From a virus: a stretch of DNA of 31,556 bases. The position numbers were made by a program, and so were the translations under genes. Location: positions 1 through 31,556 of IMG/VR virus record IMGVR_UViG_3300032893_000217; one strand, written 5' to 3'. Positions 1 through 17,666 of this stretch are shown here, in pieces. Numbering within the stretch: position 1 is the first letter of the stretch; each line of letters begins with the position of its first letter. The notes under the pieces are model-generated. The model saw only the letters and a program-made list of their open reading frames with translations. It was not told where the DNA came from and did no database searches.

Positions 1-1118
1 CGACTATCAGCCTGCATGCGGCCTCCATGTCCTTGACGGCGCCGCGCGGGAAGTTGTGTGGCTGGACGCCCTTGCCGGCCCACCGGCCAGTGCCCGCGCC
101 GTGGTACATCATGAGGTCGCGCAGCCTGCCGTCCGCCGGGTCGGCCCGCTCCAGCATGGCGTCGTACTTGGCCGTGGACGTCCGGTTGACCTCGCGCAGT
201 ATGGACAGGGCCGCCGCGACGTCCGGCCGCATGCCGCCGCGCGCCGCGAACTTGTCCAGGGTGAGCGCCTGCGTGTCGGGCAGCTCGACGCCCTGCTCGC
301 ATATCCACGAGCGCACCGCCTCGCGCCTGGTGGCGGAGAACTCCCCGCGCTCCTCCTCGGGGAGGCCCATTATGTCGGCCAGCTCGGCGTTCATGGCGCG
401 GACCTCGCGGTCGCGCATGCGCATGGCGGACCGGACCATGCCAAGGTCGCAGCGCATACCGCGCTCGTTCATGTCCTGGTCCATCTGCCAGATGCGCAGC
501 TCGGACTCCGGCAGGTCGGGCAGGGACTCGCTGAAGCAGTGCTCAGCGTCCACGTCGGTCCGGCAGTAGTCCCACAGGCGCTCGAGCAGGGCCGGGCTCT
601 CGTGCCACAGCAGCCGGTCCCCCTCGCCGGAGGCGAGCATCTTCGCCCGCTCCTCCTTGGTCGGCTTGCGGGGCTTGCTCATGCGCTTCATGAGGCGGTT
701 GCCCTCCATGTCCTTCTCTATGGGAAGGCCGAGGGCCCTGACCGCCCCGTCTAGTGACCGGGGCAGGCCATAGTAGGCGGCCTTGGCCGCGGAGCACCGC
801 CACTGCCCGTGCCCCACGGCCGGCCAGCTGTAGCGCGGCCCCATGATGAACCGCCAGATGCAGTACTCGAAGAACCGGTTGTGGGCCTCGACGAGGAGGC
901 CGTCGGCGATGGCGCCGAGCAGGTCTGCCGGGGCCGGGTCGCCAACGATGCCGAGGTGCGGGAAGGCAGGCCTCCACAGGCCCCGTGTCCCGTCGGGCAG
1001 CCGGTATGCCAGGCACAGCACCTCGGTTGTGGGGTGCTGCGCGTACAGCCAGGCACCCACGTCTATCGACTGGGCGGACCGCGTCTCGAAGTCTATGGTT
1101 ATGCGTGGAGCGTTCATC
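1..1118 (-). CDS. Family-A DNA polymerase with 3'-5' exonuclease domain (N-terminal 372 residues, truncated by window edge)
   Basis: This is the replicative polymerase of the phage, read from the ATG at 1118 down to and beyond base 1. The translation begins with the exonuclease motif I (IDFET, D9 and E11), followed by an Exo II-like AHNRFFE at 78-84 and Exo III YCRTD at 184-188, so the proofreading site looks intact. Residues 339-358 (HGAGTGRW then QPHNFPRG) match the first polymerase motif of bacteriophage-type PolI enzymes; the palm and fingers lie outside the window. It is the last visible gene of the minus-strand operon that begins near 3895, 69 bases after the small membrane gene. No strong Shine-Dalgarno is seen before this ATG. 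The family call is firm; whether the catalytic palm residues are intact cannot be seen. Confidence 0.95.
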
Positions 1119-1187
1119 GGCACCGATGGTAGCCCGGGGCCGTCCGAGGGGCGACCATCAAAGCTCTCTCTCTAGGGCACTCCGGTC

Positions 1188-1595: not shown

Positions 1596-1988
1596 TCAGG
1601 TTTCCTTGCCCTCGTGCGTCACGGCGCCGGAGCCGATGTCGTAGAGCATGTCGACGAGCTTCTTCGGGGCCCCCATCGGATAGCACATCTGGTCGCCGTC
1701 GACGAACATGACCCTCGAGGCGTCCGGCTCGCCGTCGGCCTCGAGCAGCACGGCCCTGTCGCCTGGTGGCAGGCCGGGCGGCGTCGTCGGGTTCATGGCG
1801 TAGATGCCGCGCAGGAACTCCCACTGGTCGTGGGTGAGCTCGATCATGTGCCTGGAGCCGTTCGACTCCTTCACCTGCTTCTCCATGTCCGACAGGCTGA
1901 TGCAGGGGGAAGGCCCCTCACCGGCGTGCGCGATGGCGCCGCACAGGGCCAGTGCCAACGCCGTGCTGTGGGCGAACCTGACGCGCAT
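1596..1988 (-). CDS. Secreted 130-aa conserved phage protein
   Basis: The chosen start (ATG at 1988) is preceded by AGAGGAG at good spacing; the open frame runs 15 codons further upstream but without a comparable ribosome site. The N-terminus MRVRFAHSTALALALCGAIAHAGEG is a typical Sec signal peptide with an AHA-type cleavage site near residue 21. The mature part contains HDQWEFLRGIYAMNP and TPPGLPPGDRAVLLEAD, then VMFVDGDQMCYPMGAPKKLVDML. I recall similar short exported proteins in phages of alphaproteobacteria, but no function is known to me. Its gene lies between the two-TM protein and the wHTH regulator. It should act in the periplasm or at the cell surface. Confidence 0.8.
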   Translation of the reverse strand: MRVRFAHSTALALALCGAIAHAGEGPSPCISLSDMEKQVKESNGSRHMIELTHDQWEFLRGIYAMNPTTPPGLPPGDRAVLLEADGEPDASRVMFVDGDQMCYPMGAPKKLVDMLYDIGSGAVTHEGKET

Positions 1989-2001: not shown

Positions 2002-2508
2002 CTACTTCGGCGGCAGTGCCGGCCGCACGGCATCGTCCAGGACCACCGACGAGGTCTCCTCGGTGAGGTACTTCCAGAACAGCCCGCTGTGGATGACGGT
2101 CACGTCCCTCCTGGCGACCCGCGTTGGCCTGCCCATGGACGCGTTCAGCTGGGCCTGCCTGAGCATCTCCCGGGTCGGCCTGTCGGCGCGCACCTCGTAG
2201 GAGCGCGGCGGGGCACCGTCCGCGGACAGCCACAGGTCGACCAGTCCGTTGTCGGCGTCGTCGAGCGGGAAGAACGCCACGAGCTCGGCGCGCTCCGGCA
2301 GGTCCGACAGCCGCACGGCTGCCGGGTAGCCCATGAGGTGCCACAGCGTCATCGGCACGGCGCAGGCGCAGGCGGCGAGCTGCAGGGGCAGGGCCATCCT
2401 GACCCAGGTGGGCGCGGCCGAGCGGCGGAACGTCAGGCCTGCCATAGTGGCTCCGGCGCCGAGGAAGCCACCTAGGGCCATGGTCAGGGCGGATGCGTGG
2501 GTCATCAT
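2002..2508 (-). CDS. Membrane-anchored protein with two N-terminal helices and a soluble domain (168 aa)
   Basis: The start overlaps the stop of the preceding gene (ATGATGA; either of two adjacent ATGs could serve). Residues 7-25 and 36-58 are hydrophobic and can form two membrane helices; the remaining 110 residues are soluble and charged, with LVAFFPLDDADNGLVDLWLS followed by PRSYEVRADRPTREMLRQAQ. The topology resembles an inner-membrane anchor carrying a cytoplasmic or periplasmic domain. It directly follows the candidate ExbB/ExbD-like pair and is translationally coupled to it, so it may be a third subunit or accessory of that complex. I do not recognise the soluble domain. Confidence 0.75.
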   Translation of the reverse strand: MMTHASALTMALGGFLGAGATMAGLTFRRSAAPTWVRMALPLQLAACACAVPMTLWHLMGYPAAVRLSDLPERAELVAFFPLDDADNGLVDLWLSADGAPPRSYEVRADRPTREMLRQAQLNASMGRPTRVARRDVTVIHSGLFWKYLTEETSSVVLDDAVRPALPPK

Positions 2509-3137
2509 GGCCGGTGCGCCCTCAGCGAGCCGTTGGAGAGGTAGTCGTCGGTGACGGGCCGCAGCGGCGGGTCGACCAGGCGCAGGGAGCCGTCCGGCGC
2601 GAGGTCGAAGCTCACGACGTTCACTGTGTCCCCGACGTGGTCGAGCACGACCCTATGCTGGTAGACCGTGTGCACGCTGGGATTGACCCCGATGACCTCG
2701 ACCTCCACCGGCAGGCTCAGCCCGTGCTTGCCCTCGGCGGACTGGCCGTCCGTGCGGTAGGCATACAGGTTTACCGCCAGGTCGTACCTGCCCGGCTCTA
2801 TGCAGCGCAGGCTCACGGTCTCCTTGTTGGTAAGGACCTTCACCGTGGAGCCGTCGGCCAGGTGGATGATGGAGTCCATGAAGCCCCGGGTGTCGGAGTC
2901 CAGCTTGGCGCAACCCCCGTCCCGGGACGCGAACATGACGGGCTTCTTGGACGGCGGCACGAGCCAGACGTCCACGTCCGCGTCGACGTCGACGGACCAG
3001 TCGCTCGTCAGCAGGTACTCCGCCTTCTGCGGCACGGCATCGGACCGGGCGTGTGGGTTGACCGCCACTATGACGACCGAGACGACGCAGAGCAGTAGGT
3101 CGGCTAGGCCGATCCAGATGGGCGAGCGGTCGGTCAC
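2505..3137 (-). CDS. Single-pass membrane protein, candidate ExbD/MotB-like partner of the ExbB-like channel (210 aa)
   Basis: One N-terminal membrane helix (residues 7-27, PIWIGLADLLLCVVSVVIVAV) contains an aspartate, D13, near its start. A long extracytoplasmic domain rich in beta-type sequence follows, with CAKLDSDT, TVKVLTNKETVSLRC and YDLAVNLYAYRTDGQ segments. This is the layout of ExbD, TolR and MotB: a single helix with one proton-accepting Asp and a periplasmic domain. The gene begins inside the stop of the ExbB/TolQ/MotA-like gene (4-base overlap), as those pairs usually do. No OmpA-like peptidoglycan-binding motif is visible, so the periplasmic target would be different. The pairing is inferred from topology and gene order; sequence similarity to ExbD is weak by eye. 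Confidence 0.6.
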   Translation of the reverse strand: MTDRSPIWIGLADLLLCVVSVVIVAVNPHARSDAVPQKAEYLLTSDWSVDVDADVDVWLVPPSKKPVMFASRDGGCAKLDSDTRGFMDSIIHLADGSTVKVLTNKETVSLRCIEPGRYDLAVNLYAYRTDGQSAEGKHGLSLPVEVEVIGVNPSVHTVYQHRVVLDHVGDTVNVVSFDLAPDGSLRLVDPPLRPVTDDYLSNGSLRAHRP

Positions 3138-3580
3138 CGCGAGGGCCTCCGCATGCCGGCCTCAGCGTTGTAGGTCATGACCGCGATCAGGGCCGCGGCG
3201 ACGCCGCCCGTGGCGGTCGTGAAGAGCGAGGTGGACAGGGCGACGAAGCTCGTGGAGCCTGCGGCGAGTGCCTTGGCCTGCATGGACAGGCCGACGGCCG
3301 TGCCGATGAAGCCTGCCATCACGCAGAGCCGCTCGAGCAGGTGGCCGACGGAGGCGTCGGCGCGGCAGAGGCTGTGGAGGTCGGGGGTGTCGGCGTGCCA
3401 TGCCACGGCGCCGAGCCTGACCATGGCGAACAGCAGCAGCAGGGCGATGAGGCTGGTGCACATGGACTGGTCCTCGAGCCACACCCTCTGCGGGACGCCG
3501 AGGACGGTCAGCAGGAAGGCGGCGACGCCGACCCCGACGCACATCATGAAGTGGGATAGGAACGTGAGCCGCCTGACCAT
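3134..3580 (-). CDS. ExbB/TolQ/MotA-family proton-channel-like membrane protein (148 aa)
   Basis: Four hydrophobic segments are visible at about 8-28, 41-61, 85-101 and 116-136. The last two carry the family signature: GFIGTAVGLSMQ (90-101) corresponds to the conserved G-x-x-GT-x-x-GL of TM3, and STSLFTTATGGVAAALIAVMTYN (116-138) to the A-L-x-TT-x-x-G-x-x-x-A-I-P-x-x-x-x-Y-N motif of TM4. In ExbB, TolQ and MotA these helices line the proton path. The protein is shorter than typical ExbB (about 220-240 aa), with a reduced cytoplasmic part. It starts after a strong GGAGGT site that abuts the stop of the lipoprotein gene. In cells such channels energise TonB, Tol-Pal, flagella or Zorya defence; here a phage-borne version of unknown purpose is inferred. 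Confidence 0.72.
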   Translation of the reverse strand: MVRRLTFLSHFMMCVGVGVAAFLLTVLGVPQRVWLEDQSMCTSLIALLLLFAMVRLGAVAWHADTPDLHSLCRADASVGHLLERLCVMAGFIGTAVGLSMQAKALAAGSTSFVALSTSLFTTATGGVAAALIAVMTYNAEAGMRRPSR

Positions 3581-3590
3581 GCGGACCTCC

Positions 3591-3689
3591 CTAGTTGAAG
3601 CAGATCGTCATGCCTGCGCAGAGCGACGAGGGGGCCGGTGCGCACCCGGCGAGCGCCAGGAGCAGAAGCAGCAGCGCCAGGGCCCTCAC
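3591..3689 (-). CDS. 32-aa predicted lipoprotein, GTG start
   Basis: The GTG at 3689 overlaps the TGA of the upstream gene (GTGA). The peptide is a hydrophobic leader (RALALLLLLLALAGC) ending in a canonical lipobox, L-A-G-C, with a mature part of only 17 residues from the cysteine, ending in GMTICFN. It would be lipidated and held in the inner or outer membrane. Length and lipobox recall Rz1-type outer-membrane spanins, but the mature part is very short and contains no proline-rich stretch, so that role is only a possibility. The stop merges with the strong ribosome site of the ExbB-like gene, so translation of the two is probably coupled. Confidence 0.65.
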   Translation of the reverse strand: MRALALLLLLLALAGCAPAPSSLCAGMTICFN

Positions 3690-5329: not shown

Positions 5330-5539
5330 TCAGCAGCTCGATCCACTGGGCGGAAGCATCTTATTGGACACCTGAGGCCCCTCCGCGCGGCGCACAAGTT
5401 CGGTTTCGATTGCGCAGATCACCCAATCCCAGACCGAACGCCGTCCCCGCGCCTTTAGTCCCCACAAGAGTTGCGTGACATCCTCATAGCTCAGCGACCG
5501 CAGGTAGTTATCCATCATCGCTTCCTTCTTCTGGCTCAT
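5330..5539 (-). CDS. Small 69-aa protein coupled to the fibre gene
   Basis: The ATG at 5539 overlaps the TGA of the large fibre gene (ATGA), which decides the start; an in-frame GTG at 5569 lies inside the fibre gene. The protein reads MSQKKEAMMDNYLRSLSYED, VTQLLWGLKARGRRSVWDWV, ICAIETELVRRAEG, and is mostly helical and amphipathic, with no signal peptide. It could be a chaperone or assembly factor for the fibre, since phage fibre genes are often followed by a small coupled chaperone gene, but this is inferred from position only. I do not recognise the family. Confidence 0.65.
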   Translation of the reverse strand: MSQKKEAMMDNYLRSLSYEDVTQLLWGLKARGRRSVWDWVICAIETELVRRAEGPQVSNKMLPPSGSSC

Positions 5540-8500
5540 AAGCAGCCCGTTCCGATGTTCGTTGACCACGTATTCGACAGCGGGTCTTGAGACGCGCCGG
5601 CGGGCGTCAGGGGACCGGGATTGGCCCCGGCGGAATAGGTCATGCTGGCGTTGCCGCTGAACACAGCCGACGATGATCCCCCGAGATTATTGACGCAGAC
5701 CGCCCCCGCCGAAGACCAAACTTGGTTTGCCGCAACCCCCGTTTGATCGTACCAATTACCCATGTTGTAGATCGGACGATAGAAATTTGCGTTCCATTCG
5801 GCAACCATATTGCCGTTAAGATTGCCATCCGTAGAAACGAATCCGGCCGTTGGATTGCTCATGTAAGGTGAATCGGTCGAGTTGTAACGACCGACGCCCT
5901 CGTTGTAGAAGCCTGCGACATTGACAGCAAGTGGAGCCATCTGCATTTGCTGGCCTCCGACGTCGATGCTCATGGCTCCCGCGGATGCTGCCACGACATA
6001 GCCCGTTGCAAGGCCTGCTATGTTGCCGCCATGCGAGGATGATCCTGAGGCAGACGCAAAGTGGAGCGCCGACCCTGCCGTCTGCGCCGAGTCTCCGGAA
6101 TAACATTCCGTCCCTGTAAGCGTCCCTGTCCCAGCAGCAACGGCATAACCTTGCGTATCAGCCTGGAAACCATAATCCCATGCAGTCGAGCTACCCGACG
6201 CCGTCGTAAAGTGGATCGTAGTGTATCCGGTCCCGTCCAATTCTACCGAAGAATTGGAAGTGATAGGATTTGTTCCACTCACCGCCGCGCCATCGAAAGC
6301 GTAGTAGATAGTTTGAGACCCTGTGTTCCAGAATGTATGCTTATGGAATCCGTTCTTGTCCTGATTTGCGAGTGTAATCGAGGAGTCGCCAGTTGTCACG
6401 CTAACGCTTGCAAATTCAGTTGATGCTGCCGGATAATAATGGCCTGCAACTGTGGTTGTATTTCGCAAGCAAATGTCACCATCGTTGTTTATGAGGCTCA
6501 CGCGCTCGCTTGTTGTATTTCCAGAAGGCCAAGAAGCCGTGTTATATGTGTTGCTGTTCCAGTTAATGGCATTCCCCGTATCATAGCGCCAAGTCGATCC
6601 GACGCCCGCTCCTGAAACAAGCTTCCACAAACTGCTGCCAGTGTTGTTTAGGCTGATTCCTGGCCCGATTAAATTCGCTCCGTATCCTGGCATTGTATTG
6701 TTGGCGATCGAGTTGATTGTCAGGAGGCCGCCGCTGCCGACCGTTACGCCTATCGATTCCGAAACCGTAGAATCTGTAAACGTGCCGCCGCCGCCGATGC
6801 GGTTGGTTATCAGAACGTTTCCGATATTGGTGATCGGCCCGACAGCCACGCCTGGATTAAAGTGATAGATAGCCTGCAGCGTGCTGGCCTGCGTCGCCTC
6901 GGCGTATTCGATGTTGTATAGGCGATGCGAGGACGCCGCGGGAGAACTTGAATCCTCGCCGTGACCGTTCGGCGAGCGATAATGCATTCCCTTGACGAAG
7001 TTGGCCGCGAAAGTGGTGGTCGTCCAATGCTCGACGAGCAGCGTCGTCGTGTTGCCTGTGTCCGCGATAGCCGAGATGGACGAGGCGCCCCCCGATCCGA
7101 CTTGCACCGTCTGGCCGGGTGTAACAGTATTGACTCCGACAGTGGCCGTCCCTGTCAACGAGTAATAGAGATTGTTAGCGCCCGTGTTAGTAATCGCAAC
7201 GAGCGGGCCTCCGGAATCGGTCGTAGTTGAAGATCCAGGGAAGCCGGTTAGAGTCGTTGACGCAGCAGTCGCCGTAACAGATGCCTTAACATAGTTATAT
7301 GAGCCAGGAGAATTGCCGTAGACGTGCGCCTGATTATTCAGGAGCGCATTGTGATCGATCAATATGCCGGGATCATCAGCCGCGTCAGAAAATCCAGAGG
7401 CGAGCGATACGGGAGATATGTTGGCTGCTGCCTGCTGAGTTGTTACTGTGTCGCCCTGATTGCCGGCGCCAGCCGAATTGCAGCACGGATCTGTCGCCTT
7501 AAGATCAACTGTGTTCCACTCAAACATTTCGCGCCCCGCTGGAAGGGACGACCCCCCAGCCGAGAAATTAAATGGAGAGCCCCCCGCCGCATTGATGCTA
7601 GCTTGCGTCGCATAGTTTGAGTTCTCGGCGTCCATAACAAAGTGATTGTCGTGGACTTTATATGACGCGACTGAGCCCGTGTTGACGTAGCCGAAGACCT
7701 GCGTCGCAGCATGGCCGCCCGTAGCCGCAAGCTCTAGATTGGAAATATCAACCGTTTCTGCGGCTGGGTCATAGCAGAGAATAATCGGGGAAGCCGTGCC
7801 GCTTGCTCCTCCGTAGCCGCTACCATCATTGTACCCAAGCCCATTGTTAAGGCCACCAAAATGCGGCCCAACGGCTGTGCTGGGATAAAATGCTCCGACA
7901 TTCTGGAAATAGTATTTAGGGACGCCGTATCCCTGCGTTTGCGCGGCGTCCGCATTCGACTTCGGATCGAAATAAACGCATGCCTGATATCCGGCATAAG
8001 TTCCTGATGAAATGCAGAACTGGCTGCCGATCGTGCAAGGCTGGGCCCGGCAATCGGAACCGCCAGTAGCCCATTCCGTGTCTAGATTGGCGAGACAGGC
8101 CGAAGATGGTTTAAGATTGGTGATCGTGGCGGGGTCGACCAGCGTGACATTGCTGCGGACGCCACACTTGTAATCTACGCCGCAATAGCTGTTGTTTGGC
8201 CTGGCAACAAGCCACATTGTCTCGTGCGGCGTGGTAAATGTGGTCTGCGACAACTGCCAGTGCTGGCATGTTGTTGACGGCGTCCCGTCCAAACAACTGG
8301 ATAGATAAACCCCGCCCGGAATGTGGGTAAAATCATCCTCGATCGTAAGCCCTACAGCAGCTCCCAGTCCCAGACTGCCAGAATCCAGCGTCAATTCGCC
8401 GCCAGCCGTGATTTGGGCCGAAACCGACGCCACGACATAGGTCTGCCCAGACTGCGCAGCATCGCCCGCCGTACCGCCAGAATTGGCGAAAAATGTCACA

Positions 8501-11500
8501 TCCTGGAATGTTCCATATGGCCCGCTGCCGGGGCATTGATCTCCCGATGCTCCATAGATGCAGCCATTAGGCAAGGAGGCCATGTTGGCGATTGTCGCGC
8601 ACTCAGCAATTCCCGCGCACCCCGTTCCGTCCCCCGCGCGCGGGCGGGCGTAGAGGTCACCAGGAAAGGCTGCCATATTGGCGGGCGTTCGATTGGCAAA
8701 GCCCGTAACGGTAGTGTGATAAAACCCAACAAGGCCCGTTCCATCGCCGCCGCCTACGGATGTTCCGGCAATATCATTAACGTTCGACGTGTTGTCGTCA
8801 AAAACATCGACGTTGCCTAGCCCGCTTGTAGCCTCTGCCCAATATCCCCAATTCTGAGATCCAAGCGTGAATGGCGTGCCCGCCCGGCCGATATATTCGC
8901 CCATCCATGACATGGGAGCGGGGTACGGATTTTGGCTGGTGCAGCTCCCGCAAGTGGTCGTCTGGCCGATTGATCCGACGCCGAAAACCGGCTGCCATGC
9001 GCCCGTCCGCGATCCGTGGCCAAGCAGCACTCCGGTATAGGTAAACGTCGGCGTGCACCCGGCGTCGCCCCCAATCGCGCCAGTCGAGATCGAGGAGGTC
9101 GAGTAGCCGATCCCGTTCGGCTGTGCGACGCCGTCGACAGTGTACGTAGTGAGGGAGAGCGTATAAGATCCGCCACTGAAATGCAGCGTGCCGGTCTGAG
9201 TAACGCCGGTCTTCGTTGCTGGCGGATTGCCAGTCGGAGTCTGAAAGCTGATGAGCGTCCCGTCGAGCGTTCCCGCGCATCCCGTGTTTCCGGTTACGGT
9301 TGGTGTGGGATTGCCTTGCAGGCCATATTCAGTAGTCCCATCCCCGCCGGAATAAGTGTCAATCTTATGGCCGATAAAGGCATCTACCGTATAGATCTTG
9401 AACAGCGTCGCCTCATCGACAATTGATCCGACTTCCTGGTAGTCTGTAATCGATCGATTCCCCCAAACCATTGAGTTGACAATCAGTCCATTATGGATAG
9501 GGCTTATATTGTTCTCTGCGTACACATTAAACGCAGCCGCGCCGGTAGTCGGCCCGTAATCCTCGACGATCGACTGAATAACAGCCCAGTCCATCATGGC
9601 CGTGATCGGGAGCGCAGTCGGGCCTGGACCTGTATTGACATAAAAGCCATTCGGGGTTGCGCAGCAGCTTTTTGTTACCTTATCAAACGCGATAAACACT
9701 CCATGATCGACTGAGGCGTGTGGAGTTGTACCCTGCGCGTTAAGCTGCATCCCAAGCCCATAATAAAAATCGCCTATAGACGAGTGTAGCTCAACTTTAC
9801 CTCCCGGTTTACCATAAATCGTGCTTTCGTATTGCTCAAACGATTGCGTGTAAGATGTGTTTGGAGTTGCTGTAATTCCTCCAGTGCACGCCCTGCCATC
9901 GTACATTACCCCCTCGAACCTAGCGAGAGCCGTTTCATAAATCATATACGGGCAAGTACCGTTGATTTGCAAAGTATCATAACGGTAAATGTGGAGCGAC
10001 TTCATCTCGGGAGGCCCGGCGGGCGCAGTGGTGCCCGAGCTGGTCGTATTATCGCTCTCCACATCAACGGAATATCCAGACCCAGACGAAACGACCAAGT
10101 CAGTTATTGCGGTGTTATAGCCCCATGAATTATTTGTGGCAGTGGCATTTGCGGTAATCGTTACCGGAGTTCCGATTGTCCCTCCGCTGGCCCCCCGAAT
10201 GGTTAGGGGGACGAAACACGAAGACGGGCGGGGAACATCGCCACCCGAGCCCATGCCAGACTCGGAACCACGAGTAATGCTCGAAACAACATAGATTGTT
10301 GCCCCGCAGGCATCGTTGTGCGTCGGGGTGGAGTTAGAATTGTTGTACGTCTTGAGTGCGTCTGCGGCCGCCTTGATGCTCGCATAGGCGATCGACGAGC
10401 CCGGATAGGTGGAGCAGTTCGATCCCTGCTGCACGGTAGGCGTTCCGGCCCCCGAGCCGTCAACCCAGGCACAAACCGCCCCGTTAGTATAGGTTCCATT
10501 TACGTCGTTGTAGGCCTGCAAATTACGAAGGTTGGCCGTTACGGAGCTCGCCGCGGTCCCAATTGCAACCGTGACTATCGAGCCATCCGAGACGGACCAT
10601 TGAGAGCCAGCGTTGATGTCGAGCGCCAAGCAAGGGGTATGTCCGCTGGGGCAATTGCTGGTTACGTTTGGGTCGGTCGGCTCATAGTAGACATAGGCGT
10701 CGCCGTTCGGCCGGCTGTCTACGGGATCAGTCGATCCGAAACCAGTCACATTGACGTGCTGGCCGAAATGGAACCCGGCAACAGATCCGCAATCGGTTAA
10801 AAGCCATTGCGTGACGGATGTGTGGACTTTGCATGTCGTCGAGACTGGGCCGCCGAAAGCATTCTGCGTGTCGAGAGTCGCTGTGCCATAGTTGGGATAG
10901 ACAATCGCCTCAACCGCGATTGGCCCTTGATTCAGCGAGGCCTGGTCGGACGAGGAAAAGGTGGCCTCGTAATCATAAACCGGCTGCCCGGCATAGACCG
11001 AAACGCTATCCGAAGCTCCTGCGACGTCCGTATAAGACTGCGAGGTCTCATTTGCCGTGGCGTTGGCGGATATCGTATAAATGCCCGTCGTGGCGCATGA
11101 CCCGGCTGAGTGCGTGCATGCTCCGGATGGAAACGCCGTGATCTGCACGCCGCCGGAGGGAAGGCCCGGCCCGTTGATCCATTCCCCGAGCCAGACGCCA
11201 GCTTGAATAGGCAGGCCGGTGGTCGCGTCGGTAGCCGAAAAGGCGCTGATATTGAGCGTGGCCGCGCCAGAACTTAGGCTTGCGGTAAACTGGCTCTGTC
11301 CGACCGTCATCGAATTTGATGTGTCAGAAATTAAAATAGGGCTGGCGTTTAGCTCAATCAGCACCGAGTTCAGGGAATTGTTGGGGACGACCGTCAGCCG
11401 ATCGCCGGCGAAGAAATGCGCCGTGCTGTCGCATGAGGTGAGGACATTCGACCCCTGCGTCGCCGAGCAATGGGCGACGAGTTGGCCCGTCCATATCCCC

Positions 11501-12447
11501 TGCGATGTAGCAGTGTGAGAAACCGAGTGCCCTGCCGTATCCTTCGCGACGAATTGAACCGCCTTGACGGTAGCGCCGTTCAGCGGGAATCGATGCGCGG
11601 CGACAAATGCAGTCGTGAAAGAACCTCCCGACGCCCATCGCTGGCCCGGCTCCGTCAGCCATCGCCCTACGGGGTACGTTTCGCCTGCACCATTGTAAGT
11701 GTTCGCGAAGTACCCCCCGCCAGAGAGGTTAGTAACGGGGAAGCCCGTAACGGCCAGATTTGAGACCGCAGAACTGTCTGTGTAAAATGCCGGTAGTGCG
11801 TCCATCGTAACGACGTCGCCCGGCTCAATATAGTCAGAAAGCGCAATAACAAGATTGGCGGACGACCCCGCGGCCCACTGCTGCCAGGCCACGGTCCCGC
11901 CCGTGCCTCCATATGAGGCCGGAAATGGGTATCTTACAGGAACCGTCCCATAGACCTTTTTGGAGCAATTCGTGACGGAAAGGCTCGAATTGTAGCATGG
12001 CCTTGTCACGTTAAATGTGACCATGGGCGTTGTAGTATCGGCGCTTAGTCCGCCGTTCGAGAAGTATCCCTGATAGACTCCGTTAAACGTTCCGCCTGTG
12101 GCCATCTGGGCAAGCGTGATTGTCGCGGTCCATCCGTCTAGATATGACGTAGACAGGCTATTGCCTGTAATCGGGCCATTTATCTCGACAGACGTTACTT
12201 GGCCGGGAATAGTCGCGACGCCCATCGAGCCGAGCGATAGCTGGGCATAATCATACGCATGGGCGGACTGGATGCCGAGGAAAAGCGCGAGCGCGCCGAT
12301 CAGCCTCATGGGCCAAACTCCGTAATCTCGAGGAAGCCGCCGCCACGACGGCGTGGGCGAGACGACACCGGCACGAACGGCCTGTGCCGCAGCTAGGCTC
12401 GGAACGCCCGCGATCATGACTATGAGAGCTAGCATGTGCGAGATCAT
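5536..12447 (-). CDS. Giant secreted beta-helix/tail-fibre-like adhesin (up to 2303 aa)
   Basis: The longest gene in the window. The protein is rich in Gly, Ser, Thr and Asn and built of beta structure. A pectin-lyase-like segment begins near residue 686 (AYASIKAAADALKTYNNS, then CGATIYVVSSI). Further parallel beta-helix-like stretches occur near 965 (FNVYAENNISPIHNGLIVNS) and 1600 (YKVHDNHFVMDAEN, later ILIDHNALLNNQAHVYGN). Two related domains with NTGANNLYYSL and NTGSQTIYYAF lie further on. Such proteins bind or degrade surface polysaccharides; no catalytic residues could be identified. The ATG at 12447 overlaps the previous stop and begins one signal peptide; a second ATG at 12309 (residue 47) has a good GGAG site and begins another (MRLIGALALFLGIQSAHA). 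Signal peptides are odd for a virion fibre. GC content and codon use differ sharply from the rest of the phage. Confidence 0.85.
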   Translation of the reverse strand: MISHMLALIVMIAGVPSLAAAQAVRAGVVSPTPSWRRLPRDYGVWPMRLIGALALFLGIQSAHAYDYAQLSLGSMGVATIPGQVTSVEINGPITGNSLSTSYLDGWTATITLAQMATGGTFNGVYQGYFSNGGLSADTTTPMVTFNVTRPCYNSSLSVTNCSKKVYGTVPVRYPFPASYGGTGGTVAWQQWAAGSSANLVIALSDYIEPGDVVTMDALPAFYTDSSAVSNLAVTGFPVTNLSGGGYFANTYNGAGETYPVGRWLTEPGQRWASGGSFTTAFVAAHRFPLNGATVKAVQFVAKDTAGHSVSHTATSQGIWTGQLVAHCSATQGSNVLTSCDSTAHFFAGDRLTVVPNNSLNSVLIELNASPILISDTSNSMTVGQSQFTASLSSGAATLNISAFSATDATTGLPIQAGVWLGEWINGPGLPSGGVQITAFPSGACTHSAGSCATTGIYTISANATANETSQSYTDVAGASDSVSVYAGQPVYDYEATFSSSDQASLNQGPIAVEAIVYPNYGTATLDTQNAFGGPVSTTCKVHTSVTQWLLTDCGSVAGFHFGQHVNVTGFGSTDPVDSRPNGDAYVYYEPTDPNVTSNCPSGHTPCLALDINAGSQWSVSDGSIVTVAIGTAASSVTANLRNLQAYNDVNGTYTNGAVCAWVDGSGAGTPTVQQGSNCSTYPGSSIAYASIKAAADALKTYNNSNSTPTHNDACGATIYVVSSITRGSESGMGSGGDVPRPSSCFVPLTIRGASGGTIGTPVTITANATATNNSWGYNTAITDLVVSSGSGYSVDVESDNTTSSGTTAPAGPPEMKSLHIYRYDTLQINGTCPYMIYETALARFEGVMYDGRACTGGITATPNTSYTQSFEQYESTIYGKPGGKVELHSSIGDFYYGLGMQLNAQGTTPHASVDHGVFIAFDKVTKSCCATPNGFYVNTGPGPTALPITAMMDWAVIQSIVEDYGPTTGAAAFNVYAENNISPIHNGLIVNSMVWGNRSITDYQEVGSIVDEATLFKIYTVDAFIGHKIDTYSGGDGTTEYGLQGNPTPTVTGNTGCAGTLDGTLISFQTPTGNPPATKTGVTQTGTLHFSGGSYTLSLTTYTVDGVAQPNGIGYSTSSISTGAIGGDAGCTPTFTYTGVLLGHGSRTGAWQPVFGVGSIGQTTTCGSCTSQNPYPAPMSWMGEYIGRAGTPFTLGSQNWGYWAEATSGLGNVDVFDDNTSNVNDIAGTSVGGGDGTGLVGFYHTTVTGFANRTPANMAAFPGDLYARPRAGDGTGCAGIAECATIANMASLPNGCIYGASGDQCPGSGPYGTFQDVTFFANSGGTAGDAAQSGQTYVVASVSAQITAGGELTLDSGSLGLGAAVGLTIEDDFTHIPGGVYLSSCLDGTPSTTCQHWQLSQTTFTTPHETMWLVARPNNSYCGVDYKCGVRSNVTLVDPATITNLKPSSACLANLDTEWATGGSDCRAQPCTIGSQFCISSGTYAGYQACVYFDPKSNADAAQTQGYGVPKYYFQNVGAFYPSTAVGPHFGGLNNGLGYNDGSGYGGASGTASPIILCYDPAAETVDISNLELAATGGHAATQVFGYVNTGSVASYKVHDNHFVMDAENSNYATQASINAAGGSPFNFSAGGSSLPAGREMFEWNTVDLKATDPCCNSAGAGNQGDTVTTQQAAANISPVSLASGFSDAADDPGILIDHNALLNNQAHVYGNSPGSYNYVKASVTATAASTTLTGFPGSSTTTDSGGPLVAITNTGANNLYYSLTGTATVGVNTVTPGQTVQVGSGGASSISAIADTGNTTTLLVEHWTTTTFAANFVKGMHYRSPNGHGEDSSSPAASSHRLYNIEYAEATQASTLQAIYHFNPGVAVGPITNIGNVLITNRIGGGGTFTDSTVSESIGVTVGSGGLLTINSIANNTMPGYGANLIGPGISLNNTGSSLWKLVSGAGVGSTWRYDTGNAINWNSNTYNTASWPSGNTTSERVSLINNDGDICLRNTTTVAGHYYPAASTEFASVSVTTGDSSITLANQDKNGFHKHTFWNTGSQTIYYAFDGAAVSGTNPITSNSSVELDGTGYTTIHFTTASGSSTAWDYGFQADTQGYAVAAGTGTLTGTECYSGDSAQTAGSALHFASASGSSSHGGNIAGLATGYVVAASAGAMSIDVGGQQMQMAPLAVNVAGFYNEGVGRYNSTDSPYMSNPTAGFVSTDGNLNGNMVAEWNANFYRPIYNMGNWYDQTGVAANQVWSSAGAVCVNNLGGSSSAVFSGNASMTYSAGANPGPLTPAGASQDPLSNTWSTNIGTGCL
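12307..12321 (-). promoter_or_regulatory. Internal ribosome site and alternative start of the giant fibre gene
   Basis: GGAG at 12321-12318 lies eight bases before the ATG at 12309. That start yields a protein beginning with its own signal peptide, 46 residues shorter than the one from 12447. The upstream start has no visible Shine-Dalgarno and would rely on coupling to the stop at 12444. Confidence 0.6.
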
Positions 12448-14279
12448 GGGACGCTCGAAACTTTGAAGGTGAATGCAGCGACCTTAGACGAGTTCTCGTC
12501 CGTAAACGTCGTCCCCGTGGAGAAGGTCGGCCACGTTCCCGTAGTGACGCTCGCGTAGTAGAGGCCAACAAACAAACTACCTGCAAGTAGAGCGTAAGAG
12601 GCAGTACTAGCGCCCATTATCGCCGATGCTTGAGGAACACTCAAATTTGGGCCATAGAACTTAACGCTGCTGTCACCGCTGTTGGTACAGAAAAAGTAAA
12701 CTCCGGGCGGTAGGGCGATCGCCGTGAAGGTGTATGAAAGGACGCCGGTGCTCGTGTTCGCGAGCGCGCCGCTGGAGGCGAGCGGAGCCCCCTCGGGCTG
12801 CCATATGCCGGTTGTGGCGTCGGGAGCCGTCCCTGCGCTATAAATCGCCATTGCGGAGTTTGTCGTTCCGACGGTGCTGATGTAAGTATCTATCTCGCTG
12901 ATGTGGATCGCCTGCGTGAGGCGAAATGGGGCGCACTCCATGCGGGAGGCAGTGGCCAATGCCGTGGCGGCAATGGTCGCATAAGGGAAAGAGGGATAGT
13001 ACCGTCCGGCCACGTAAGCTGCCCAATATGGCGTCGTGCATGCTCCCGCGTCCACGACGTTCCCATTGGCGTCGAACTTCGCGCAGTCGCCGGACGTCAG
13101 CGTGCCGCTCGCGGTCGCAACCGTGGTCCCGTTGCCGCTCGTCGGATAGCCGCCGAACGATCCGGCGTTGTTGAACTGGATCTGGCCGCTCGAGCCGCCC
13201 GGCGAGCCGGTTCCGCCGCAGCCCGCGCCGGAGTCGACGAGGTTCCCACTGGCGTCGATCTTCACGCAGTCGCCGGTCGTCAGCGAGCCCGTGGTCGAGG
13301 CGATCGTCGTCCCGGTGCCCGACCTGTTGTAGCCGCCGAAGCTGCCCGAGTTGTTGTACTGCAACTGGCCGCTGGAGCCGCCGGGCGTGCCCCCGCAACC
13401 CGCGCCGCTGTCGACGAGGTTTCCGTTGGCGTCGATCTTGACGCAATCGTTCGAGGCCAGCGAGCCTGTGGTTGTCGCAAGGGTTGTGCCGCTTGAGTTG
13501 GAAAGCGCCGTAGCTTTGACAACTGAGGTTCCGGTTCCCACGGTCGCAACACCGCCCAACACGCCAGCGTTGTTGTACTGGATTTGTCCGTTTGTACCGC
13601 CGGGAGGCGAGGAAACGCCCGTCTGAGCGAAATAGTTAGTCCCGTCCGAAACAATGCCTGCGCTCTGCCCCGCCAGAAGAACGAGGGTGGCCGCCTTGTT
13701 GATCTGTGACGTTGTCGGCGTGATTGTCGCCGTTCCTGCGCCTAGATTTTGGATCGACGCGACGAAAAAGCCCGAACCGAATCCGGTCGTCCCTGCTTGC
13801 GGAAGCGTGACAGCGATCGAGCTCGCGTTTGAAAGAGTGATGAGCTTGCCGCAATCGCTCGCCGAGATCGTGTATGTCGTGCCCGTCTGCGCGTTAGGGG
13901 TTATTGCGGTCGAAACCGTGACAGCGCCCGTCAGGGGACCGCCCGCGGGGCATGTCGTCGTGATCGAGCTCACCCCTCCGGAGCAGGCCCCGCCGGAGTC
14001 GACAAGGTTGCCGCTTGCGTCGATGGATACGCAATGGCCGGTCGTCAGCGAGCCCGCGGTGGTGCCGATGGTCGTGCCGGGGCCGGACCTGCTTAGGCCG
14101 CCGAACGACCCGGCGTTGTTGTACTGGACCTGCCCGTTGGAGCCGCCCGGGGTCCCTCCTCCGCCGCCGTGCCCCGGAGGGGGCCCGATCTGCGACCACG
14201 AGGGGTCGACGACCGATAGCGCGGCCAGCAGGGCCACGCCGCGCAGGAGCGCCGCTCGCGGCCTGATGATCGGACGCAT
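12444..14279 (-). CDS. Secreted tail-fibre-like protein with four GSNGQ repeat modules (611 aa)
   Basis: The ATG at 14279 overlaps the stop of the preceding gene, which fixes the start; the frame extends 30 codons upstream inside that gene. The protein begins with a signal-peptide-like segment (RGVALLAALSVVDPSWSQ), then a glycine linker (GPPPGHGGGGGTPGG). Four modules follow, each with a G-x-x-GQ-(V/I/L)-Q-(Y/F)-NN-(A/S)-G-x-(F/L)-GG motif and a D-C-V-K-I-D-A-(S/N)-GNLVDSG motif. Between modules one and two sits a domain widespread in phage tail fibres (TYTISASDCGKLITLSNAS, VTLPQAGTTGFGSGFF, TATITPTTSQI). The C-terminal 200 residues, from YWAAYVAGRYYPSFPY to FKVSSVP, are probably the receptor-binding tip. 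The fibre call is firm; the export signal is unusual for a virion protein. Confidence 0.85.
   Translation of the reverse strand: MRPIIRPRAALLRGVALLAALSVVDPSWSQIGPPPGHGGGGGTPGGSNGQVQYNNAGSFGGLSRSGPGTTIGTTAGSLTTGHCVSIDASGNLVDSGGACSGGVSSITTTCPAGGPLTGAVTVSTAITPNAQTGTTYTISASDCGKLITLSNASSIAVTLPQAGTTGFGSGFFVASIQNLGAGTATITPTTSQINKAATLVLLAGQSAGIVSDGTNYFAQTGVSSPPGGTNGQIQYNNAGVLGGVATVGTGTSVVKATALSNSSGTTLATTTGSLASNDCVKIDANGNLVDSGAGCGGTPGGSSGQLQYNNSGSFGGYNRSGTGTTIASTTGSLTTGDCVKIDASGNLVDSGAGCGGTGSPGGSSGQIQFNNAGSFGGYPTSGNGTTVATASGTLTSGDCAKFDANGNVVDAGACTTPYWAAYVAGRYYPSFPYATIAATALATASRMECAPFRLTQAIHISEIDTYISTVGTTNSAMAIYSAGTAPDATTGIWQPEGAPLASSGALANTSTGVLSYTFTAIALPPGVYFFCTNSGDSSVKFYGPNLSVPQASAIMGASTASYALLAGSLFVGLYYASVTTGTWPTFSTGTTFTDENSSKVAAFTFKVSSVP
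13020..14150. repeat. Four degenerate in-gene modules of the tail-fibre protein
   Basis: Related DNA segments centred near 13130-13195, 13310-13380, 13545-13600 and 14095-14145 encode the repeated GQxQYNNAGxFGG motif, each paired with a segment encoding DASGNLVDSG. The first, second and fourth in coordinate order are GC-rich and close; the third is more diverged. Such modules allow fibre-domain exchange by recombination. Confidence 0.75.
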
Positions 14280-14635
14280 CAGTTGAACTCCACATACATC
14301 TGGGTGTTGGCGCCGGAGGCGATGCAGTTGAGGTCGGCGTGGGGGACGCCGCGGGTGGCGGGCCCCCACAGCGCTGACTGGCTCGCAGCCATCTGGATGG
14401 ACAGCCCGTCATTCAGGACCGGCGTCGAGCCCCAGGAGCAGGCGATCGAGTTCGAGGAGTCGACGTCCTGCACCTGGACGTGCTGGTAGGAGCCTGCACG
14501 CAGGCATCTCGTCGACGACGTGCCGACGATGCACTTCGTGAAGGTAAAATTCTGGTCGTCGGCCTCGGAGGCCGACGGCAGGGCCAGGGCCGCTGCGGTC
14601 AAGGCGACCGCCATGGCCAGGTTCAGCTTGCTCAT
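14279..14635 (-). CDS. Secreted 118-aa protein
   Basis: The ATG at 14635 (MSKLNLAMAVALTAAALALP) begins a clear signal peptide with cleavage near SEA-DDQ; GGAGAGGG lies about twelve bases upstream. The frame is open further up but without a start signal. The mature protein is about 95 residues, with four cysteines (in TKCIVG, RCLRAG, IACSWGS and LNCIAS) that could form two disulphides, consistent with export. It contains GLSIQMAASQSALWGP and ends QMYVEFN. Its stop overlaps the start of the fibre gene, so the two exported proteins are co-translated. I do not recognise the family. Confidence 0.8.
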   Translation of the reverse strand: MSKLNLAMAVALTAAALALPSASEADDQNFTFTKCIVGTSSTRCLRAGSYQHVQVQDVDSSNSIACSWGSTPVLNDGLSIQMAASQSALWGPATRGVPHADLNCIASGANTQMYVEFN

Positions 14636-15473: not shown

Positions 15474-15490
15474 AATGCTTGGGGTAGATG

Positions 15491-15621
15491 CTTCCTGCTG
15501 GAGCGTGCAACGGGATCGAACCGGCACACCCGTAGCTGTTGCTGTCACAATCCTACCCGGCCTTGGCGGGTCGCAGGATGGTCCGGCTTCACGGACCTGG
15601 GCTAGTGGCCCCAGCAGGAAA
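15491..15621 (-). ncRNA. Candidate structured RNA with five helices and a T-loop-like hairpin
   Basis: Between the SSB-like and HIRAN genes the minus-strand transcript can fold as a closed multi-branched RNA. P1 is an 11-bp closing stem (TTTCCTGCTGG at 15621-15611 with CCAGCAGGAAG at 15501-15491). Inside are P2 (GGGC/GCCC at 15611-15599, weak and sharing a base with P1), P3 (GGTCCG/CGGACC, 15597-15580), P4 (ATCCT..ACCCG with CGGGT..AGGAT, 15579-15550) and P5 (GTGTGC/GCACGC plus CGG/CCG, 15529-15503), whose seven-base loop TTCGATC equals a tRNA T-loop. It does not fold as a tRNA. It could be a free RNA or a leader element of the HIRAN gene. Based on manual pairing only. Confidence 0.45.
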
Positions 15622-15637
15622 CCCTTTTCGCGGCCGG

Positions 15638-16313: not shown

Positions 16314-17666
16314 CTAGTCCTCGTCGCCCTCGTCGCCGTCGTCGAAGTCCGCGGCTGGGTCGACCGTCGCCTCGTCGCGCGGGTCGTCCCTCGGGGCGAG
16401 TGTCAGCCCGCCAGGCGGCTTGTGGGCCAGGGGCTCCACCTGCCAGGTCCCGTCGGCGGTCAGCCTGTGGCCGTTGACCAGCTTGCGCGCGTCCTTGCCG
16501 AGCTTCTCCACCTTCGCGGGCGACAGCAGCTTCGGCGGAGCCATGAACTGGCCGTCGGTCAGCCCGACGGCCCGGAGCCGCGCCGCCACGACCTCGGGGG
16601 AGGCCTCCCAGCGGCGCACGCTGCGCTTGCGGACCAGCTTGAAGCCGTCCAGCCTGACGCCCTGCATGGCGAGGCGGAGGGCCATGGCCTCTATCGCTCG
16701 GTTGCGGGCGTCGAGCACCGGCACCCACCTGAGCGACCTCGCCAGGTCAGCCACGTGGCGGTCTGTCAGCAGTCGCCCGGGAGGCTCGTCATCGAAGTCC
16801 GCCCCGGCAGCCTCCTGCGCGAGGTCCCTCAGTGAGGGGCACACGGCCACGGCGTCGCAGAACGACGACGCGCAGTGGTCGCCGGCGCTGAGCCACCGCG
16901 CCGACCACTCCGGGGTGGCCTCGCCCGGGAACTCGCCGTCGGCCTCGAGCACGCGGTCGACCGCCTCGGCCAGATGGTCCCTGAACTCGAGCAACTCGGC
17001 CATGGTGCACATGTAGACGCGGACCGAGCCGTCCTCGTGGGGCGCGTTCGGCTGCACGAGGATCAGCTTCACGCGCTCGTGGGTGAAGTCATAGAGGGCG
17101 GCAACGCCCAGCGCGTAGTACAGCAGCTGTGGGTTGCCGTGGAGGACGCCGTCGGGGCCTGGCTCGGCCACCTCGACTACCACGCCCCCGCCATTCTTGT
17201 AGTCGATGACGACCAGCTCCTCGAGAAACAGGCTCCAGACGATGTCGCCCGTGCCGAACATGTTCGGGCGCAGCCACGACAGATCGAACTTGCACTCGCT
17301 GCGCAGCTCCGCGGCCGCGCCGAGCCTGCGGCCCTCGGCCCACACGACGTCGAGCATGACGTCGACGCCCGCCATCATGGCGTCGTCGACCTCGAAGCCC
17401 TGCTCAGGGTCGGCGGGCTTGCGCAGTATGCGGCCGTCGAGCGTGATGTAGGCGCCGCGGAAGGACCGGGAGTCCGCCAGGCGCAGCCTGACGCACTCCT
17501 CGATCAGCACGTGGGCAGCGGTGCCCAGGTTGGCGGCACGGGAGCTCCCACGCCTCAGGACCGCCGGCAGCGACTCCACGAGGCGCGGCGAGCCGGGGCA
17601 CCTGATCCAGCGCTTCGACCCGGACGCCGACAGCCTCGCGTGCGCCCGCTCACCGTGGTCGGACAC
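16314..17666 (-). CDS. DUF2800-type Cas4/RecB-like PD-(D/E)XK nuclease (450 aa)
   Basis: Starts at a GTG (17666) overlapping the previous TAG by one base. The N-terminus RLSASGSKRWIRCPGS with C23, and the later cluster C265, C270 and C276 (HCASSFCDAVAVCP), fit the four cysteines of an iron-sulphur cluster as in Cas4 and AddB. The nuclease core has H52 (GTAAHVLIEE), D141 (FGTGDIVW), and D155/K157 (VVIDYKNGGG), followed by QLLYYALGVAAL, the QxxxY motif of RecB-family nucleases. All expected catalytic residues are present. It should process DNA ends during phage recombination or replication together with the SSB-like protein. The C-terminus is acidic (DFDDGDEGDED). Confidence 0.88.
   Translation of the reverse strand: MSDHGERAHARLSASGSKRWIRCPGSPRLVESLPAVLRRGSSRAANLGTAAHVLIEECVRLRLADSRSFRGAYITLDGRILRKPADPEQGFEVDDAMMAGVDVMLDVVWAEGRRLGAAAELRSECKFDLSWLRPNMFGTGDIVWSLFLEELVVIDYKNGGGVVVEVAEPGPDGVLHGNPQLLYYALGVAALYDFTHERVKLILVQPNAPHEDGSVRVYMCTMAELLEFRDHLAEAVDRVLEADGEFPGEATPEWSARWLSAGDHCASSFCDAVAVCPSLRDLAQEAAGADFDDEPPGRLLTDRHVADLARSLRWVPVLDARNRAIEAMALRLAMQGVRLDGFKLVRKRSVRRWEASPEVVAARLRAVGLTDGQFMAPPKLLSPAKVEKLGKDARKLVNGHRLTADGTWQVEPLAHKPPGGLTLAPRDDPRDEATVDPAADFDDGDEGDED

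Follow-up and report, generated by a model that had tools for sequence, protein, structure and literature searches.

Gene organization of the locus

The stretch of DNA analysed here (the window) is a 31,556-base IMG/VR virus record. It was originally predicted, from the bare sequence, to encode three coupled membrane proteins, and the open reading frames are confirmed: A, B and C overlap on the minus strand, each neighbouring pair sharing 4 bases. Together with a fourth gene, D, they sit on the minus strand between a 2303-aa open reading frame (12447-5536) and a DNA polymerase gene.

3586-3592, minus strand: Shine-Dalgarno sequence of gene A, AGGGAGG, strong, identified from the sequence
3134-3580, minus strand: gene A, 148 aa, predicted MotA/TolQ/ExbB-family channel subunit with PF01618 and PDB profile matches
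3302-3304, minus strand: Gly93 codon of A, in the GTAVGL motif, invariant in 43 of 43 sequences (alignment A7)
3215-3217, minus strand: Thr122 codon of A, aligned with the Thr of TT-x-x-G in MotA (HMM alignment, 8gqy); Thr in 41 of the 43 sequences, Ser in the other two
2505-3137, minus strand: gene B, 210 aa, GTG start, single helix and predicted periplasmic beta-sandwich, candidate axle subunit
3099-3101, minus strand: Asp13 codon of B, the one invariant charge within the transmembrane helix (45 of 45 sequences)
2568-3029, minus strand: putative periplasmic part of B (residues 37-190), similar to DUF2135 and, in the fold of the model, to TerD
2002-2508, minus strand: gene C, 168 aa, two helices, then a small domain that is soluble and probably periplasmic; overlaps B, and its homologues follow B
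1596-1988, minus strand: gene D, 130 aa, secreted accessory protein with a signal-like N-terminus; homologue in contig L001

The replication genes of the window resemble those of Rhodobacter phage RcRudolph. In the stretch of that phage examined (20,000-64,892) there is no homologue of A, B or C.

2-1123, minus strand: DNA polymerase, 65% identity to that of RcRudolph
16314-17666, minus strand: Cas4-type exonuclease, RcRudolph-like
18625-21087, plus strand: primase, RcRudolph-like

Gene A, a predicted channel subunit

Compared alone with the Pfam family MotA_ExbB (PF01618), A of the window gives only a weak match (E 0.0066, 16.6 bits), below the curated cut-off of 22.9 bits. Its assignment rests on relatives. 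The homologue in Rhizobium phage Y68 reaches 4.1e-4, and all 11 members of the alignment of phage A sequences match PF01618 (up to 4.6e-6), with no other family recurring; four bacterial orthologues score 30.1 to 46.0 bits, above the curated cut-off. Searched against the PDB, the 11-sequence phage profile finds 23 sequences (E up to 10, best 3e-5), every one of which is MotA, PomA, TolQ, ExbB, ZorA or a protein named after the domain. With a 43-sequence profile the best match is MotA (8gqy, 1.7e-8), with the TT-x-x-G motif aligned, and all 17 matches below 0.01 are members of the MotA/TolQ/ExbB/ZorA family; among the weaker matches, five of 11 are unrelated (four rhodopsins and one designed protein). 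The original prediction would have been refuted had no profile matched the 148-aa protein; since the family profiles match MotA, TolQ, ExbB and ZorA almost exclusively, it survives this comparison. That A is a channel protein of the MotA/TolQ/ExbB family is thus a well supported prediction from sequence.

The signatures of channel helices that had been claimed for A are present as GTAVGL at residues 93-98 and TTATGG...AVMTYN starting at residue 121. Across the 43 sequences G90, G93, G97 and G125 are invariant, residue 122 is Thr in 41 and Ser in two, and residue 94 is Thr in 34, and the pore helices show the conserved Gly/Thr pattern of the PF01618 family. A has four helices, only two of which are strongly hydrophobic on the Kyte-Doolittle scale. 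The other two, which correspond to TM3 and TM4 of the MotA_ExbB domain, are rich in Gly, Ala and Thr and are recognised by the profile, not by hydropathy.

Gene B, a candidate axle subunit

The product of B was described in the original prediction as a single helix containing an Asp, followed by a large domain, and the structural model has this layout: one N-terminal hydrophobic helix (residues 6-26) and a large C-terminal beta-sandwich (mean pLDDT 85.9, pTM 0.74). Asp13 is invariant in all 45 sequences. No other conserved charge occurs in residues 14-27, where the whole alignment has a charge in one cell only. Neither B nor its profile matches the ExbD/TolR or MotB families in Pfam, NCBIfam or the PDB. 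Position, layout and the invariant Asp thus favour the proposed ExbD/MotB-like partner, while the profiles do not, and B remains a candidate partner of A whose homology to ExbD or MotB is undemonstrated.

A peptidoglycan-binding domain is not recognised in the part of B assigned to the periplasm, which is DUF2135-like. The B profile matches a domain in bacterial proteins of 325 to 1110 aa (1e-9 to 3e-11). Two of these proteins have VIT domains and a match to DUF2135 (PF09906) inside the B-like region, one over the curated cut-off (66.5 bits) and the other just under it; direct Pfam matches to DUF2135 on B itself are weak (E 0.15 for one bacterial B). Judged by these profile matches, the domain appears to belong to the neighbourhood of DUF2135, and its placement in the periplasm is inferred.

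The B model superimposes on TerD 3ibz with a Z-score of 11.2 over 146 residues at 4.1 Å (VIA-align). Other TerD entries give Z 9.0-9.3, and from rank 6 the score drops to 5.5; Foldseek alone finds no significant match for the model. Even though the fold score is high, hhalign against 46 extracted TerD-type reading frames returns nothing, so that homology to TerD is rejected and a resemblance of fold is all that remains. Asp54, Asp56, Asp82 and Glu106 of B are invariant, which may suggest metal binding, by inference only.

Genes C and D

The third gene had been expected to encode a protein anchored by two helices, and the model of C agrees (mean pLDDT 75.9): N-terminal helices at residues 4-27 and 34-58 precede a small domain. 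Lys/Arg predominate in the loop between the helices, with a mean of 1.77 positive against 0.09 negative residues and a net positive charge in 30 of 43 rows of the alignment. Since this loop is mostly positive, the positive-inside rule would put the domain outside; it probably faces the periplasm, with both ends of the protein probably there too, a placement that is inferred. The resemblance of the soluble domain to an OB fold (Z 4-6) is too weak to name a fold, and the only PDB sequence match of C (E 0.0012), a de novo designed homodimer, is disregarded.

D is secreted and carries a PTTPPGLPPGD motif, with no family match. It has a homologue in the related IMG/VR contig L001 (7753-8211, E 6.6e-19) and none besides among the loci examined. 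In PHROGs, none of A, B, C and D finds anything beyond chance scores.

Distribution and linkage of the trio

The nearest relatives of the locus are two IMG/VR contigs, L013 and L001. L013 has A, B and C intact, with A 49% and B 56% identical to those of the window. In L001 A is 56% identical and A and C are intact, while B is split across frames. The split B (6560-7050 of L001) beside an intact A and C is either a sequencing error or a real defect.

A tblastn search for B-type sequences matches 27 records in a set of 50,697 from phages, with a GenBank and a RefSeq copy counted separately; every match is in a Rhizobium or Sinorhizobium phage. The B-bearing phages are Pootjesviridae, whose replication genes are of T4 type, phages of 68 kb and temperate phages like 16-3. 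Carriers of the trio include both lytic and temperate phages of these hosts, as well as uncultivated viruses; the trio genes in these phage records are annotated as hypothetical or by number only. Of 33 phage or prophage loci, 29 contain A, B and C together; some of the loci belong to one phage entered in two databases.

Outside phages the trio is also found on chromosomes, where it forms an operon of its own, in Alphaproteobacteria, Thiobacillus and other groups. When bacterial and archaeal genomes were scanned, 94 candidate loci came up and 80 were kept, mostly from Alphaproteobacteria, with others from Thiobacillus, Gammaproteobacteria and Nitrospira. Of the 80 loci, 78 include A and 72 include C, several of the gaps lying at contig ends, and homologues of C come after B in phages and bacteria alike. 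No neighbour beyond A, B and C is conserved at the bacterial loci, where the largest clusters are antisense shadows of the three genes themselves. Because A, B and C are kept together without any other conserved bacterial neighbour, the trio is taken to be a working unit. In the order of Azospirillum 34 of 82 genomes have B-like matches, and in the phylum 24 of 398 have them, domain-only matches being included in both counts; the trio thereby points to an uncharacterised bacterial system.

In the concatenated A and B tree the phage copies stand largely apart from the chromosomal ones, and the AU test does not reject a single phage clade (p 0.668). Recent capture of a host gene as a simple origin is set aside, as the two groups separate deeply; the direction of transfer is undetermined.

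The absence of an ExbD or MotB profile match for B, together with the lack of a structure of the complex, leaves room for a reading without a motor: A would merely let ions leak passively or serve as a scaffold, and B and C would be neighbours that have nothing to do with it. This reading is very hard to sustain when the trio is kept together across phages and bacteria, the Asp of B is invariant and the channel Thr of A is conserved. The linkage of A, B and C is, on these comparisons, more than chance: the homologues co-occur in divergent phages and in bacteria, and G90, G93, G97 and G125 of A and D13 of B do not vary.

Genomic context

The neighbours of the trio vary between phage clades, so that its function need not be the same in each. 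In some Rhizobium phages it adjoins genes for gyrase, a late sigma factor and SbcCD; in other Rhizobium phages it adjoins exonuclease and recombination endonuclease (endonuclease VII) genes or tRNA genes, or lies upstream of an exonuclease and nucleotide hydrolases or phosphatases. In the window it is near the DNA polymerase gene. Since the neighbours in relatives are of replication type, a place in the replication region is favoured over one in a lysis cassette, a conclusion to which the context points without any expression data.

Holins respond to the proton-motive force (PMF), and a channel that leaks or senses this force could time holin triggering or disrupt the envelope late in infection. 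Control of lysis along these lines, one of the guesses of the original prediction, draws on this general behaviour of holins and on the window, where the trio is downstream of a giant late-type open reading frame and near small membrane and lipoprotein-like ones. Since the trio follows this Gly/Ser/Thr-rich frame, late expression is not excluded. However, other phages place the trio among replication and nucleotide-metabolism genes and not by an endolysin or holin, the lysozyme gene of TM3_3_14B forms a separate group more than 3 kb from it, and the same trio is kept in bacterial chromosomes outside phages. The lysis guess is weakened by these positions and is now improbable.

In the 16-3-like clade a gene for a Trypsin_2 protease lies directly upstream, within about 210 bases of A, at all 16 loci (one genome being counted twice).

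L005 7241-8140 and equivalents: trypsin-like protease gene upstream of A, at all 16-3-like temperate loci examined

Eight of the trypsin-like proteases were inspected; their N-termini are hydrophobic, and motifs that could supply the catalytic His and Ser are present. A second, distant pair of loci (L025 and L026) has a trypsin-like gene 7 bases upstream of A, and in the window's own clade the protease is absent beside A. The association of a putative ion-driven envelope complex with a periplasmic protease suggests an activity directed at the periplasm or the outer membrane.

Comparison with known ion-driven motors

Reviews and surveys list MotAB, PomAB, ExbBD, TolQR, GldLM, AglRQS, ZorAB and SiiAB as 5:2 motors (PMC9389320, PMC12905483, PMC12505986, PMC12204202). 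The trio has features of several of these and coincides with none. As in MotA-MotB and PomA-PomB, the A profile aligns with TM3-TM4 of MotA and B has one N-terminal helix with an invariant Asp; unlike them, the trio has no flagellar genes seen beside it, the 148-aa A is too short to hold the torque-generating cytoplasmic domain, and B has no MotB/OmpA-like match. ExbB-ExbD and TolQ-TolR share with the trio the Pfam family of A, an adjoining single-helix Asp protein and a third membrane protein in the operon, comparable to TonB or TolA. However, B is missed by ExbD profiles and its periplasmic domain is DUF2135-like, and C has two helices and no TonB or TolA match.

The likeness to ZorA-ZorB bears on function, since a Zorya-style anti-phage defence or exclusion device could be carried by a phage against competitors. 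Orthologues of A do match ZorA profiles weakly (PADLOC 2.4e-6, NCBIfam 2.8e-5), carriers include temperate phages, and one clade has a secreted protease partner. Even so, these scores do not come near the ZorA cut-offs, the long cytoplasmic tail of ZorA is missing from A, no effector genes (ZorC/D or ZorE partners) are recognised with the trio, and PADLOC has no match for A, B, C or D of the window. The trio also occurs in lytic phages and as a stand-alone chromosomal operon. Such a device is conceivable but unlikely.

The closest published idea is the TPH-vWA class, in which a non-ExbD protein supplies the transpore helix (PMC12204202, Mol Biol Evol 2025). It resembles the trio in pairing a TolQ-like gene with a non-ExbD protein that has an Asp in the transpore helix and an unusual periplasmic domain; the difference is that this domain is vWA there and DUF2135-like in B. 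The text of that paper mentions phage for ZorAB only, and its section on the new class presents no such beta-sandwich partner. In the literature searched, which left out most subscription journals, preprints and supplements, neither a phage-encoded member of the 5:2 motors nor an axle with a DUF2135-like domain was found, and the A-B-C trio is not described there, in PHROGs or in PADLOC.

Proposed mechanism and function

In bacteria, ion-driven 5:2 motors serve motility, import, the stability of the envelope and defence against phages. A, B and C probably make up an ion-driven membrane complex of the MotA/ExbB superfamily whose action is directed at the envelope. Its stoichiometry, probably 5:2, is inferred, no complex having been modelled. 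In the mechanism proposed, A would form a pentameric channel wheel and two B helices with Asp13 would form the axle, with the B domains projecting into the periplasm. C would be a third stator or transmission part, both of whose ends are probably in the periplasm. The flow of protons (or sodium) past Asp13 and the ring of Thr122 would drive the B domain against a periplasmic or outer-membrane target. Ion flow and rotation, like the function, are inferences, with no expression, ion-flow or phenotype data behind them.

Since the trio is encoded among replication-region genes in phages, it would probably act during infection or lysogeny, and probably not as part of any lysis cassette. The function favoured is a PMF-powered alteration or guarding of the envelope, in which the co-encoded periplasmic trypsin-like protease might perhaps help in one phage clade. 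Superinfection exclusion is the leading candidate, tentatively held and by inference only.

Rhizobium hosts possess their own Tol and Ton systems, which tells against a trio that would instead maintain the envelope of the infected cell or carry out uptake for it, providing a service like that of Tol-Pal or TonB which is missing from the host or becomes lost. The functions of the superfamily and the chromosomal version in free-living Alphaproteobacteria are in keeping with such a service, but the trio has no conserved receptor or lipoprotein partner next to it, and this role is doubtful, if possible. The further guess that a phage copy might interfere with host motors fares badly in Rhizobium as far as a chromosomal copy of the same system is concerned. 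In the genus of Rhizobium esperanzae B occurs in only three of 148 genomes, and at least one copy, that of R. esperanzae, groups with phage sequences, so that interference with a chromosomal copy is unlikely there.

That the trio recurs in other phages and on many bacterial chromosomes suggests an envelope machine of a kind not yet described. A more far-reaching reading, slightly more likely than not, is that alphaproteobacterial phages carry an ion-driven 5:2 rotary motor of their own. It would be of an A-B-C type so far undescribed, in which the axle domain is DUF2135-like and the third subunit has two helices, and through it the PMF would work on the host envelope in infection; the same type would constitute an unstudied bacterial system. 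With a channel of only 148 aa and a partner of 210 aa, the minimal pair lends itself to structural work, and the presence of the trio in the classic temperate phage 16-3, as p038, p040 and p042, makes its function testable in a laboratory host.

Other features of the window

The giant 2303-aa open reading frame is preceded by one of 641 aa (together 5536-14369, minus strand). Both are rich in Gly, Ser and Thr, have signal-like N-termini and find no informative PHROG; large open reading frames precede the trio in L001 and L013 too. An RNA-like element at 15490-15622 on the minus strand folds strongly (z -4.06); it has a closing stem and a T-arm-like GGTTCGATCCC and is recognised by neither ARAGORN nor Rfam. 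Over 76 bp of it (15535-15610) Xanthomonas phage DoCa5 has a stretch of 90.8% identity, which carries no annotation there. At 1190-1265 a tandem duplication of about 37 bp in a small minus-strand open reading frame (1188-1316) gives rise to a repeated GVPYLITAYLGY peptide.
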